Origin: an uncultured Opitutales bacterium
Lineage (GTDB): Bacteria > Verrucomicrobiota > Verrucomicrobiia > Opitutales > Seribacteraceae
Assembly (NCBI GenBank): GCA_938091675.1
Contig: CALKMX010000032.1
Location: 1-38,095 of the forward strand
Length of the DNA stretch: 38,095 nt
Direction of reading: 5' to 3'
The notes below the pieces were generated by a model. The model had not been told where the DNA came from, ran no database searches, and was given only the letters and a program-made list of their open reading frames with translations. This document shows positions 22,103-28,776 of this stretch, one piece after another (the first letter of the stretch is position 1; every line of letters starts with the position of its first letter). Position numbers and translations under genes: made by a program.

Positions 22103-23188
22103 ATGGACAAGACATACGAAATCGGCGGGAAAACTTTCGTTTTAAACGAGGAAAAAGCAAAACAGGCGTTTCAGGAGAAAAAGGTCATCAACGGGCGGGA
22201 CACCATGACCTTCAACCTGCTTCCTTTAAAGTATCAATGGGCTTATGATCTTTACCGCAAAATGAAGTCCAACCATTGGGAGCCTGAAGATATTCCTATG
22301 CAAAAAGATTTGGAACAGTGGAAAAACCCAGCGGAGCTTTCCGACAGTGACCGGTGGATTATCATGATGGGGATCGGCTATTTTTCTGCGGCAGAAGGAA
22401 TTGTTGGCGATAACATCCAGCATGTTGTCCGCGAGTTGGTCACCGCACCTGAGCTTAAGCTCGTGTTGGGCCGCCATGCCCACGAGGAAAACATCCATGC
22501 GGACAGTTTATTGTACATGATCAGCTCACTTGGCATCAATCCTCACGAGTGCGAAGCCATGTTTGAGCAAATCGAGACCATCCGCCGGAAAAATGAATTT
22601 GTTACCCGCGTATCCAAAAACCTCCGTCGTGATCTGGATCTCACCTTGACCGAGAACAAACAGGAACTGGCCAAAAATATTTTCATATTTGGGCAGTGTA
22701 TGGAAGGTACTCAATTTTACGGACTCTTTGGGATGGTCTTAAGTTTGGCCAGGCAGAACAAAGTCCCGGGCATTGGACAGATGTTCCGCTACACCCTTCG
22801 TGATGAATCCAACCACATCGAATTGTTCCGCAACCTGTTCCGTGTTCTTATTGATGAAAACCCGGACATTTGGACCACAGATTTTCGCCAGGAACTGGTG
22901 GAGATAATGAAGGAAGCCGTTGTGCTGGAAAAGGATTTTATCCGCGACTGCCTGCCCGTTAGTTCAGTCGGTCTTAGTGCGGATGAGTTCTGCAGTTATA
23001 TTGACTACATTGCGGACCGTCGCCTCAACGGAGTGGGCCTTGAGATTCTTCACCCAGGCCTGGAAAATCCATTCCCCTGGCTTGCGGAGATGATGGATGT
23101 GAAAAAAGAACAGAATTTCTTCGAAGGTCGGGTGACCGAGTACCAAAAGTCCTCTGCCCTCACCGATGTTTCGGATGATGAATTGTAA
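22103..23188 (+). CDS. nrdB: Ribonucleotide reductase beta subunit, class Ic-like (Leu at the radical site)
   Basis: This 361-residue R2 protein makes the oxidant that starts ribonucleotide reduction. All six metal ligands can be placed: Glu98 (SAAEGIVG), Glu129 and His132 (EENIH), Glu201 (CMEGTQFYG), and Glu235 and His238 (RDESNHIE). Four residues after His132, where E. coli has radical Tyr122 and Chlamydia trachomatis has Phe127, this protein has Leu136 (HADSLLYMI). The first ligand is Glu, as in Chlamydia, not Asp. Trp59 and Tyr230 align with Chlamydia Trp51 and Tyr222, which relay electrons during assembly of the Mn/Fe cofactor. Tyr347 near the C-terminus fits the radical-transfer Tyr. 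A class Ic Mn(IV)/Fe(III) enzyme is therefore predicted; the metal itself cannot be seen in sequence. Confidence 0.95.
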   Translation: MDKTYEIGGKTFVLNEEKAKQAFQEKKVINGRDTMTFNLLPLKYQWAYDLYRKMKSNHWEPEDIPMQKDLEQWKNPAELSDSDRWIIMMGIGYFSAAEGIVGDNIQHVVRELVTAPELKLVLGRHAHEENIHADSLLYMISSLGINPHECEAMFEQIETIRRKNEFVTRVSKNLRRDLDLTLTENKQELAKNIFIFGQCMEGTQFYGLFGMVLSLARQNKVPGIGQMFRYTLRDESNHIELFRNLFRVLIDENPDIWTTDFRQELVEIMKEAVVLEKDFIRDCLPVSSVGLSADEFCSYIDYIADRRLNGVGLEILHPGLENPFPWLAEMMDVKKEQNFFEGRVTEYQKSSALTDVSDDEL

Positions 23189-23255: not shown

Positions 23256-26200
23256 ATGCGTAATACGATATTTGAGGAAGATCGATTGTTAACCAAAGCG
23301 GCGGAAACGCCCCGAGAAGATAAGCCCCGTTTTGACTGGGCGGAAGATTTGGGAGAGAATCGGTTCGAGATTCCAAAAGTGCGTATTACAGATGGCGCGG
23401 GTGACCGTGATTTCCACATCGCCGAGGTGGCCGAGGTTATCGGGGAGGCTCTTACCGACCTGATGATCTCAAGGGAAGAAAAGGAAATATACACCCCAAA
23501 AAACCGGGAGCTCGTGGTGGAGTCCTCCCGGCTCGTCGCCAGCCGCTTAATCGAGCGGTTGGAACAAGAGGAGGAAGGCGGCGCCCCCCGCCTCTCCTTC
23601 GACGATCTTCACAAGCTGATCGAAAAAGCCCTGGTGGAAAATGATGCTTATGATGTGGCCAAAAGCCTGGTCTTTTCACGTTCCAATCAGGGTCCAGGGA
23701 ACGGGCATTTTCCAAGCAATCCCCCGGTTGACAGTTCCCTGATCCGCTTGATCCGTAGAAGCGGGCAAGTGGTGCCCTGGAATTCCTCCAAGATCGAGGT
23801 TGCTATTCGTAAAGCGTTCCTCTCCCTGCGTCTAGACTCCGAGCCGGCCGTCCGCATTTCAGATGAAGTCACCCAACGGGCAGTGGCTACGGGGCAGGCA
23901 TTTATCAATATCGAGGATGTTCAGGACATTGTGCAGGAAGAATTGATGAAGCATGGCTTCTTCAAAGTTGCGGAGTCCTACATTCTTTACCGTGCCCGCC
24001 GCCGGGTTGAGCGTGAGAGCAATACCGAGCATCATGAAGTCCGTCAGGACTCCATGATCGTGGTGAAGAAAAAAGATGGGACCACTTTTTTCTGGGACGG
24101 GATTGATCTTAAAAAGCGTATTACTTTTTCCAGTATCGGGCTCGATCTATGCCTGACCCCGGAACAAATAGAAGATGATTTGCGCCGTTCCGTTTTTTCC
24201 GAAATCACTGAGGTTGATTTGCGCAAAACCATTATTCTCAATGCAAAAGCCCTGATCGAACGGGATGCAGACTTTGCCAAATTTGCCGCCCGTATTCTCC
24301 TCACCTATGTTTATGAAGAAGTGCTTGGCTGGGATGTGGCTCATCAAAGCATCGAGGAAATCCGTACCTTTCATGCCAAGGAATTTAAGTCCTATTTAAA
24401 ACGCGGGGTGGAGATCAAGAGGCTGGATAAGAAATTGCTCAAGCTCGATATTGACCGCCTTTGCCAGGCAATTGATCCTTCCGCAGACCTTGACTTTGAT
24501 TACCTCGGTATTCAAACCCTGTACGACCGCTACCTGGTGGTGGACAAGACTGGGGAAAAGCCCCGCCGTCTGGAAACCCCCCAGTTTTTCTGGATGCGGG
24601 TAGCCATGGGTGTCTTCGCCCATGAAGACAATCCGGAGGACCAAATCATCTCCCTTTACAACCTTTACAAGAGCCGGAGGTTTTGTTCCTCCACCCCTAC
24701 GCTTTTCAACTCCGGAACCCTGCACTCCCAGCTATCTTCCTGCTACCTGTACAAGGTGGACGATACCATTGAGTCGATCATGTACCGGGGAATTGCAGAA
24801 AATGCTTTCCTTTCCAAGTGGGCGGGTGGCCTGGGTGGTAGCTGGACCGCAGTTCGGGGCACGGGCAGTCATATTGCCGGCACCAATGGCGAAAGCCAGG
24901 GGGTTATCCCATTTCTGAAAATGCACAACGACCAGCTCTGTGCAGTCAACCAGGGCGGAAAGCGCAAAGGATCCGGATGTGCATACCTTGAAACCTGGCA
25001 TTGCGACATACTTGAATTTCTGGAGCTTCGTAAAAATACCGGAGACGACCGCCGTCGTACTCACGATATGAACACGGCGAATTGGATCCCGGACTTGTTC
25101 ATGAAGCGTATGGAAGCCCGGGGAAACTGGACCCTTTTCCGGAGCAATGAAGTGCCAGACCTCCACGACCTCTACGGCAAGGCATTTGAGGAAAGATATG
25201 CGGAGTATGAATCCAAGGCAGAAAAGGGAGAAATCTGGGGGCATACTATTCCAGCCATCGACCTGTGGAAATCGATGCTCAAAATGCTTTTTGAGACTGG
25301 TCATCCATGGATAACCTTTAAGGATACCTGTAATATCCGCAGCCCGCAGGACCATGCCGGGGTGATTCATAGTTCCAACCTTTGTACCGAAATTACCCTT
25401 AATACCGGTGCGGATGAAACCGCGGTGTGCAACCTCGGATCTGTGGTGCTTGATTCCCACCTTACCCCGGAGGGAGATCTTGATCACGAGAAATTACGCG
25501 ACACCATCAGAATTGCCATTCGGGCATTGGACAATGTCATTGATGTAAACTTTTATCCCACCAAAGCAGCCAAGACTTCGAACAGCCGTCACCGTCCGAT
25601 CGGTCTTGGAGTGATGGGTCTACAGAATGCACTCTTTATCAAAGATGTTTCTTTCACTTCGGAGGAAGCGGTTGAATTCAATGATGAATTCATGGAAGCA
25701 ATCTGTTATTATGCCTATGAGGCTTCCAGTGATCTGGCCAACGAGCGCGGCACCTACTCCTCCTATCGCGGGTCCAAGTGGGACCGGGGCATTCTTCCCC
25801 AGGATACCATCCAAATGCTGGAAGAGGAGCGCGGAGAAAAAGTGGAGGTTCCCAAAACTGCAAAAATGGACTGGTCTGTGGTTCGCAAGAAAATTGCCAA
25901 GCATGGTATGCGCAACAGCAATGTGATCGCCATTGCCCCCACCGCGACCATTTCCAATATCATGGGCTCATCCCCCTGTATTGAACCGACCTACAAGAAT
26001 ATTTTTGTTAAGAGTAATCTCTCCGGTGATTTCATGGTGCTGAACCGTTTCCTGGTAAATGATTTGAAAAAGGAAGGATTATGGAACAGGGAGATGTCCG
26101 ACCAGTTAAAATACTTTGATGGTGAGCTTGGTTCAATCGAAGGCATTCCCGAACCCATTAAGAAAAAATACCTCACTGCATTTGATGTGTCTTTTGAATA

Positions 26201-26522
26201 TGTTCTTTCCGCTGCTGCACGTCGCCAGAAGTGGATTGATCAGTCCCAATCGGTCAACCTGTTTCTTGGTAGTCCTGATCTTAAAAACCTTTCTCATATG
26301 TACCGTGCGGCCTGGCGGAAAGGGCTAAAGACCACTTATTATTTACGCACCCTTGGTGCATCCAATATTGAGAAGGCAACCGTAGATCTGAAAAAAGCAA
26401 AGCCCCTGGCCGATACCCCGCTTGATGAACCCTCTGCCAAGAAGGAATTCACCGATGCGGAGAAGAAGGCATGCAGTATTCAAGCCATGCTCAATGGCGA
26501 AGAGTGCGAAGCCTGCCAGTAG
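23256..26522 (+). CDS. nrdA: Ribonucleotide reductase alpha subunit with three ATP-cone-like domains
   Basis: This 1088-residue catalytic subunit reduces ribonucleotides to deoxyribonucleotides. Usual class Ia NrdA is about 760 residues; the extra 300 are N-terminal. Residues about 162-253 are a good ATP-cone (VPWNSSKIEVAIRKAF, then FINIEDVQDIVQEEL and YILYRARRRV). Residues about 267-358 form a second (VKKKDGTTFFWDGIDLKKRI) and about 39-142 a diverged third. The barrel has the active-site Cys in SQLSSCYLYKVDD, the SSNLCTEITL segment with Asn, Cys and Glu, and the second redox Cys in CNLGSVVLDS. The C-terminus ends in CEACQ, the swinging Cys pair that is re-reduced by thioredoxin. The triple-cone layout is the same as in Chlamydia R1 and matches the class Ic-like NrdB encoded just upstream. 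Confidence 0.96.
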   Translation: MRNTIFEEDRLLTKAAETPREDKPRFDWAEDLGENRFEIPKVRITDGAGDRDFHIAEVAEVIGEALTDLMISREEKEIYTPKNRELVVESSRLVASRLIERLEQEEEGGAPRLSFDDLHKLIEKALVENDAYDVAKSLVFSRSNQGPGNGHFPSNPPVDSSLIRLIRRSGQVVPWNSSKIEVAIRKAFLSLRLDSEPAVRISDEVTQRAVATGQAFINIEDVQDIVQEELMKHGFFKVAESYILYRARRRVERESNTEHHEVRQDSMIVVKKKDGTTFFWDGIDLKKRITFSSIGLDLCLTPEQIEDDLRRSVFSEITEVDLRKTIILNAKALIERDADFAKFAARILLTYVYEEVLGWDVAHQSIEEIRTFHAKEFKSYLKRGVEIKRLDKKLLKLDIDRLCQAIDPSADLDFDYLGIQTLYDRYLVVDKTGEKPRRLETPQFFWMRVAMGVFAHEDNPEDQIISLYNLYKSRRFCSSTPTLFNSGTLHSQLSSCYLYKVDDTIESIMYRGIAENAFLSKWAGGLGGSWTAVRGTGSHIAGTNGESQGVIPFLKMHNDQLCAVNQGGKRKGSGCAYLETWHCDILEFLELRKNTGDDRRRTHDMNTANWIPDLFMKRMEARGNWTLFRSNEVPDLHDLYGKAFEERYAEYESKAEKGEIWGHTIPAIDLWKSMLKMLFETGHPWITFKDTCNIRSPQDHAGVIHSSNLCTEITLNTGADETAVCNLGSVVLDSHLTPEGDLDHEKLRDTIRIAIRALDNVIDVNFYPTKAAKTSNSRHRPIGLGVMGLQNALFIKDVSFTSEEAVEFNDEFMEAICYYAYEASSDLANERGTYSSYRGSKWDRGILPQDTIQMLEEERGEKVEVPKTAKMDWSVVRKKIAKHGMRNSNVIAIAPTATISNIMGSSPCIEPTYKNIFVKSNLSGDFMVLNRFLVNDLKKEGLWNREMSDQLKYFDGELGSIEGIPEPIKKKYLTAFDVSFEYVLSAAARRQKWIDQSQSVNLFLGSPDLKNLSHMYRAAWRKGLKTTYYLRTLGASNIEKATVDLKKAKPLADTPLDEPSAKKEFTDAEKKACSIQAMLNGEECEACQ

Positions 26523-27514: not shown

Positions 27515-27639
27515 TTTGACTGATCAAGATGTATGCTTCATCCGGACATGCAAAGGATAAATAGCTAAGTTTTTTTTCATTTCTCTTGGATTGTCCGCTT
27601 AGGTTTGTCAAAAGATACCAATAAACATTGTTCAACCAT

Positions 27640-28776
27640 ATGTCACAGTCCCTAGATTCATCTGCTCCCACCAAAGATAATCCTTACCAGTCAAAATTAC
27701 TGGTCAATCGATTGCTCAACCAGGGTTCCGATAAGGAAACCCGCCACTTCGAACTTTCTCTTCTGCAAAGCGGGTTGACTTATGAACCGGGGGATTCTCT
27801 TGGGGTAATCCCAGAAAACAACCCCAGGGTGGTGGACGAGCTTCTCCATGCCGTCGGGATGTCGGGTGCAGAAGAGGTGCAACTGGCCGATCGCTCCACC
27901 CCGGTAAGGGATGCATTGATCCATTCCTTTGCCTGTACCGTGCTAAGCAAGATACAGGTCAAAAAATTTAATGACATCGCTCATGCGGATAAACTCTCCG
28001 GTTTGCTTGAGCCCGCCAACCGGGATGCTTTTGCCGACTATCTCTGGGGAAGGGAACTGATTGATTTGTTTACTGAATTCCCCCAGCAAGGCATCCGCCC
28101 GGACGATTTGCTGGGATTGTTGCGGCCCATGCCCCCGCGTCTGTATTCGATTGCTTCCAGTATCAAGGCCCATGAAGAGGAAGTCCACCTGACGGTTGCG
28201 ATTGTGCGCTACCAGTCACATGGCCGGGACCGCGAGGGGGTATGCTCCTCCTACCTTGCCGACCGGGTGGGGGAATATATTCCCTGCTACTTTCACCCCA
28301 ATAAAAATTTCAAACTCCCCCAGGATCCAGACGCTCCCATTATCATGGTGGGTCCGGGTACGGGCATTGCCCCGTTCCGTGCCTTTATTGAGGAACGCCG
28401 GTCCACCGGGGCGGGAGGGAAAAACTGGCTCTTTTTTGGAGACCGTTCATCCGCGACCGATTATTTGTACGGAGAAGAGTGGGAACAGTATCGCCAGGAC
28501 GGTCTGCTCACCGGTCTTGACCTCGCCTGGTCGCGCGATCAGGCAGAAAAGGAATATGTCCAGCACAAGATGCTGGCCAAGGGAAAAGAATTATTTACCT
28601 GGTTGCAGGACGGTGCGTACTTTTATGTCTGTGGGGATGCTTCCCGTATGGCCAAGGATGTGGACCTTGCCCTTCGCCAGATTGCTTCGGCTGAAGGAGG
28701 GATGTCGGATGAAGAGGCTGGCGCCTGGGTAAAATCGCTGCAGAAAGAAAAGCGCTACCTGAAGGATGTTTATTAA
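27640..28776 (+). CDS. CysJ/CPR-type FAD-NADPH diaphorase module without a flavodoxin domain
   Basis: This 378-residue flavoprotein matches the C-terminal part of sulfite reductase alpha subunit (CysJ) and cytochrome P450 reductase. FAD-binding is shown by RPMPPRLYSIASS and GVCSSYLADR, and NADPH-binding by MVGPGTGIAPFRAFIEER, FFGDRSSATDYLY, and YFYVCGDASRMAKDVD, ending with KEKRYLKDVY as in CysJ. The ATG at 27640 gives a protein that starts directly at the connecting FAD domain. The N-terminal FMN/flavodoxin domain of CysJ is absent, so electrons must leave FAD to another carrier or directly to a partner enzyme. No cysI, cysH or cysD lies in the window. Such short forms are annotated as sulfite reductase alpha in other Verrucomicrobia. 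Confidence 0.88.
   Translation: MSQSLDSSAPTKDNPYQSKLLVNRLLNQGSDKETRHFELSLLQSGLTYEPGDSLGVIPENNPRVVDELLHAVGMSGAEEVQLADRSTPVRDALIHSFACTVLSKIQVKKFNDIAHADKLSGLLEPANRDAFADYLWGRELIDLFTEFPQQGIRPDDLLGLLRPMPPRLYSIASSIKAHEEEVHLTVAIVRYQSHGRDREGVCSSYLADRVGEYIPCYFHPNKNFKLPQDPDAPIIMVGPGTGIAPFRAFIEERRSTGAGGKNWLFFGDRSSATDYLYGEEWEQYRQDGLLTGLDLAWSRDQAEKEYVQHKMLAKGKELFTWLQDGAYFYVCGDASRMAKDVDLALRQIASAEGGMSDEEAGAWVKSLQKEKRYLKDVY

Follow-up and report, generated by a model that had tools for sequence, protein, structure and literature searches.

Classical small subunits of class I ribonucleotide reductase (RNR) carry a tyrosine at the tyrosyl-radical site. In the stretch of DNA analysed here (the window; 38,095 nt from an uncultured Opitutales bacterium), the small-subunit gene nrdB encodes a leucine at this position. 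Does such a protein still serve as the RNR of the cell and, if so, where is its oxidant held?

The nrdB-nrdA locus and its host genome

The window is part of the draft genome of a marine bacterium (1.66 Mb, 91% complete); among named genomes, those of Opitutales/Opitutia (Verrucomicrobiota) are closest to it. NrdB is complete, with 361 aa counted from an ATG. It matches the Pfam family Ribonuc_red_sm (PF00268) with E=7e-70 and, above the model's cut-off, NCBIfam NF005550. The nrdA gene lies downstream of nrdB after a gap of 67 bases. The features of the locus are listed below together with the evidence for each; residues of the Chlamydia trachomatis protein are marked Ct.

22103..23188, + strand: nrdB, radical-generating (beta, R2) subunit of class I RNR (ORF; Pfam; PDB 1syy)
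22277..22279, + strand: Trp59 codon; Ct Trp51, electron relay (alignment to Ct R2, relatives)
22394..22396, + strand: Glu98 codon, metal ligand 1; Ct Glu89, Asp in class Ia/Ib (alignments, relatives)
22487..22498, + strand: Glu129-Asn-Ile-His132, ExxH metal-ligand motif 1 (alignment, relatives)
22508..22510, + strand: Leu136 codon, tyrosyl-radical position; E. coli Tyr122, Ct Phe127 (alignments, relatives)
22703..22705, + strand: Glu201 codon, metal ligand; Ct Glu193 (alignment, relatives)
22790..22792, + strand: Tyr230 codon; Ct Tyr222, electron relay (alignment, relatives)
22805..22816, + strand: Glu235-Ser-Asn-His238, ExxH metal-ligand motif 2 (alignment, relatives)
23141..23143, + strand: Tyr347 codon; Ct Tyr338, E. 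coli Tyr356, inter-subunit radical transfer (alignment, relatives)
23256..26522, + strand: nrdA, catalytic (alpha, R1) subunit, 1088 aa, with ATP-cone (Pfam, NCBIfam, residues read)

Rfam found no RNA elements in the window, and promoter and terminator matches were at chance level. Further along the window, a CysJ-like flavoprotein (27628-28776) matches the sulfite reductase flavoprotein model at positions 223-597 only, so the FMN (flavodoxin) domain is apparently missing from this ORF.

The NrdA protein has Cys496, Asn708, Cys710, Glu712, Cys725, Tyr1028, Tyr1029 and a C-terminal CEAC, which we take to be the counterparts of the catalytic and transfer residues of E. coli NrdA. In the 91%-complete host genome we found no second class I/II large (alpha) subunit, no class III NrdD, no NrdI and no other NrdB or R2-like gene; the three family searches gave matches in control genomes. 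As no other RNR was detected in the host, NrdB has to function with no tyrosyl radical at the Leu136 site. It is possible that a second RNR was left out of the draft genome bins. The host genome also encodes an Nramp-type metal transporter, which is compatible with the use of Mn and is no evidence for Mn in NrdB.

Active-site residues of NrdB

NrdB was aligned with the R2 protein of C. trachomatis (PDB 1syy) using phmmer (E=2e-80), and the segment comprising residues 97-160 is free of gaps. Within this segment Leu136 falls on Ct Phe127, which is the radical position. The metal ligands of NrdB are those of the Ct protein (E98=E89, E129=E120, H132=H123, E201=E193, E235=E227, H238=H230), the relay and transfer residues pair in the same way (W59=W51, Y230=Y222, Y347=Y338), and F205 pairs with Ct F197. 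The first-pass annotation of this DNA had reported a leucine at the tyrosyl-radical site, six metal ligands with Glu98 first as in Chlamydia, and Trp59 and Tyr230 as the equivalents of the Chlamydia electron-relay residues Trp51 and Tyr222. All of this is borne out by the alignment, in which position 136 shows Leu opposite Phe127 and no Tyr. The residues read directly in the sequence (W59, E98, E129, H132, L136, Y138, E201, Y230, E235, H238, Y347) agree with the annotated ones in identity and coordinates. The wider proposal of a class Ic type active site that has no tyrosyl radical is supported by Leu136, Glu98 and the complete ligands and relay. The placement of Leu136 rests on sequence alignment and not on residue-level structural pairing.

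An AlphaFold2 model of NrdB based on a 66-row alignment reached a mean pLDDT of 87.5 and a pTM of 0.86, with low confidence for the last 28 residues; a model based on 30 close relatives only was poor (pLDDT 67). The 66-row model matches structures of Ct NrdB best, among them the Mn/Fe form, with Z 44 and ~2.2 A over ~325 residues (Foldseek E=1e-22 against Ct NrdB). The corresponding Z scores are 36-37 for E. coli class Ia and 34-35 for class Id.

Conservation of the leucine among relatives

L136, the metal ligands, W59, F205, Y230 and Y347 are identical in all loci compared (110/110), a set that includes the window's own locus and genomes duplicated between two collections, leaving about 80 to 100 independent ones. 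As L136 is invariant in all loci, it is not a sequencing accident. The Leu-type set spans a large clade of the Verrucomicrobiota and also contains records titled Armatimonadetes and Lentisphaerae. In 71 of the 74 relatives with enough flanking sequence, nrdA follows nrdB within 1.5 kb. At one locus (L164 3629-4752, genome G382) the nrdB match is split, with query residues 1-159 in one frame and 191-361 in another, which is likely a frameshift or an assembly error. A scan of viral contigs found 80 relatives when the family alignment was used as the query, and no match when the window protein alone was used.

Leu at the radical position is already documented for class Ic, and this NrdB is a further example. 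Leu stands beside Phe as a class Ic reference residue (PMC12918982), and PMC3824934 mentions Leu substitution in R2c proteins, from a 2010 survey of Mn/Fe proteins. For another ferritin-like RNR partner, Leu is described as redox-inert, “much like class Ic” (PMC9531940). The first-pass annotation had called the Leu form less well studied. In the open-licence literature we found no biochemical study of a Leu-form NrdB and no paper on NrdB in Verrucomicrobia; the form is, however, no oddity, as it is clade-wide and a recognised class Ic residue.

One Verrucomicrobiota family carries a second NrdB-like gene directly before the Leu-type nrdB (12 of 12 checked; L142 4302-5516 and L266-L277). In this paralog four of the six metal ligands are replaced (E98Q, H132R, E235V/I/T and H238R) and the C-terminal Tyr is absent, and it retains an acidic C-terminal tail ending in DL, as does its partner NrdB. 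The gene order is beta', beta, nrdA in one genome of the family with a long enough flank. The ligand-less paralog is reminiscent of yeast Rnr4, which is its nearest known parallel; no bacterial Rnr4-like paralog is reported in the titles and abstracts that we found in open-licence literature. A different beta' is located between nrdB and nrdA in two genomes of a second group, the window's own order (L140 5447-6532, L141 6896-8143), where the ligands are kept, but with the changes Y138H, F209H and Y230N.

Comparison with the known classes

The marks of class Ic are found together at this locus, namely a radical position not occupied by Tyr, a full set of six ligands that begins with Glu, W59, Y230 and Y347, and an NrdA with the cysteines and the Tyr-Tyr pair. 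With the C. trachomatis class Ic NrdB (1syy, 4m1i) the protein shares ~37-40% identity, the six ligands with Glu first, the lack of a radical Tyr, the Trp/Tyr relay and the C-terminal Tyr, and this enzyme is also the top structural match; the two differ in having Leu here and Phe there and in standing on separate tree branches. The viral Ic-like R2 proteins (PMC12918982; L190, L191 and L196, among others) likewise have Glu first, an aliphatic radical site and a Tyr at 230, but their aliphatic residue is Ile or Val and they fall on another tree branch. Class Ia-type NrdB of the Pseudomonas/Acaryochloris kind (L182-L184) belongs to the same small-subunit family, with 36-40% identity and an equivalent of Tyr230, whereas its first ligand is Asp and its radical site is Tyr. 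Class Id NrdB (Leeuwenhoekiella, Facklamia, Flavobacterium) has the Glu first ligand in common with our protein and would also have in common an oxidant on the metals; it differs in having a Tyr and a nearby Lys in place of Leu136 and Gly102, and the identity in structural alignment is 15-20%.

Classes Ia and Ib are ruled out by Glu98 and Leu136, which stand in place of Asp and the radical Tyr. In class Ie the metal ligands are lost, DOPA is made from Tyr, and NrdI is a partner; this class is ruled out as the ligands are kept, the site has no Tyr and no NrdI was found in the host genome. Class Id keeps Tyr together with Glu (PMC8463856) and does not fit Leu136, and its characterised NrdBi subgroup is disfavoured by Gly102, which takes the place of Lys in the window protein and throughout the 20 Leu-type rows (PMC6754362). 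Y347 and F205 speak against an R2-like ligand-binding oxidase (R2lox), a group that has no C-terminal Tyr and has Ala replacing Ct Phe197 (PMC4118035, PMC3824934).

Association of the first ligand with the radical site

We compiled a set of 81 R2 rows from bacterial genomes, plasmids, phages, viral contigs and the PDB. An Asp first ligand is accompanied by Tyr at the radical site in 45 of 45 rows, and the 36 rows with a Glu first ligand have Leu (15), Phe (11), Ile (6) or Val (4), with zero exceptions. The same rule is seen in the 66-row alignment. On the best tree of the 81-row set the ligand switches four times, and the radical site follows the ligand in every row. An independent-pairs sign test gave no significance; only one pair was on well-supported branches and the test hence had no power. 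It is the exceptionless association and the pairing known from the literature that carry the argument. In that pairing, Glu with Tyr is found in class Id (PMC8463856), and Glu with a non-Tyr residue goes with class Ic, which is reported to be highly active only with Mn/Fe (PMC8463856, PMC4118035). The combination of Glu and Tyr is absent from the sampled R2 rows. Ile or Val together with a Glu first ligand is seen in ten viral-contig R2s (L190, L191, L196, L198, L202, L207, L210, L223, L225, L230), which fit the description of the Ic-like group in PMC12918982.

Evolutionary history of the radical site

In trees built without the trait columns, the Leu clade is placed elsewhere than chlamydial class Ic, with long branches present, and the chlamydial Phe/Glu enzymes group with Pseudomonas/Acaryochloris-type enzymes, which have Tyr/Asp (support 99/99). 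A tree forcing all Glu enzymes together was rejected by the AU test with p=0.004 (p=0.024 without PDB 6y2n), and forcing together the Leu and the chlamydial-type Phe enzymes with wider sampling gave a marginal p=0.067. These results favour, short of establishing it, a loss of Tyr in the Leu clade that would be independent of Chlamydia. According to PMC3824934, class Ic had come out as polyphyletic in an earlier study as well. As the trees suggest an independent loss of Tyr, descent gives no ground for assigning the Ct cofactor to the Leu clade, and the resemblance to Chlamydia should not be taken to mean that both inherited the trait from one ancestor. We regard it as possible, if a little short of probable, that a class I RNR relying on metals only arose a second time, by convergence, within the PVC superphylum, namely in the Leu clade, which may then have a metal preference of its own.

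Probable cofactor and mechanism

Taken together, we consider it likely, with a probability of roughly 80%, that nrdB-nrdA encodes the aerobic RNR of the cell and that its tyrosine-free NrdB holds the oxidant in its metal centre, for which Mn(IV)/Fe(III) is the likeliest state. Two metals would be bound via Glu98, Glu129, His132, Glu201, Glu235 and His238, with Mn probably in site 1. Leu136 would be redox-inert, leaving the one-electron oxidant stored on the metals. During activation, the extra electron would pass through Tyr230 and Trp59, and the oxidant may then travel from Trp59 to Tyr347, on to Tyr1028/Tyr1029 of NrdA and finally to Cys710. Because the primary ligands alone do not fix the identity of the metals (PMC4118035), the Mn/Fe cofactor is what we infer as the best reading of the sequence; no Leu-type NrdB with a measured metal content was found in open-licence literature. 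The lower exposure to radical quenching proposed in the first-pass annotation is a hypothesis even for Chlamydia (PMC4118035).

A tyrosine-free NrdB could also work with another dimetal oxidant, for example the Mn2(IV,III) of class Id or an Fe/Fe centre in a high-valent state. A Glu first ligand is found in class Id as well (PMC8463856), the Leu clade may have an origin separate from that of chlamydial class Ic, and sequence cannot reveal the identity of a metal. Against such an oxidant, NrdB has Gly102 where characterised class Id has Lys, four residues after the first ligand, and Ile105 where NrdBi has Trp at +7 (PMC6754362); moreover, class Id retains the Tyr at its radical site, NrdI was not found in the host genome, and Tyr230, which is conserved in class Ic, is present. 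We judge this alternative to be unlikely, and prefer the Mn/Fe centre.

Even less can be said for readings that depart further from class Ic. A tyrosyl radical might sit on another tyrosine of NrdB such as Tyr138, two residues on, which is kept in the compared loci of the Leu clade. However, the C. trachomatis R2 also has that Tyr beside its Phe127, the position is His in the Leu-type protein L143, and the first ligand is Glu and not the Asp that goes with a radical Tyr, so that we find a radical there very improbable. Slightly more improbable still is that NrdB is no working RNR subunit but a degenerate paralog or one of the R2-like ligand-binding oxidases. R2lox also lacks the radical Tyr and contains Mn/Fe (PMC4118035), but NrdB retains the C-terminal Tyr347 and the relay residues, has Phe205 where R2lox has Ala (PMC4118035), adjoins nrdA and is the sole R2-like gene found in the genome.

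The class Ic biochemistry in the cited literature comes almost entirely from Chlamydia. With its conserved Leu-type enzyme, this free-living lineage would offer a non-pathogen system for studying the residues that set the choice of Mn/Fe. If the loss of Tyr and the change from Asp to Glu occurred jointly on more than one occasion, the two changes would be mechanistically coupled, and the pairing of ligand and radical site would then offer an easy way to predict the cofactor type from a genome.
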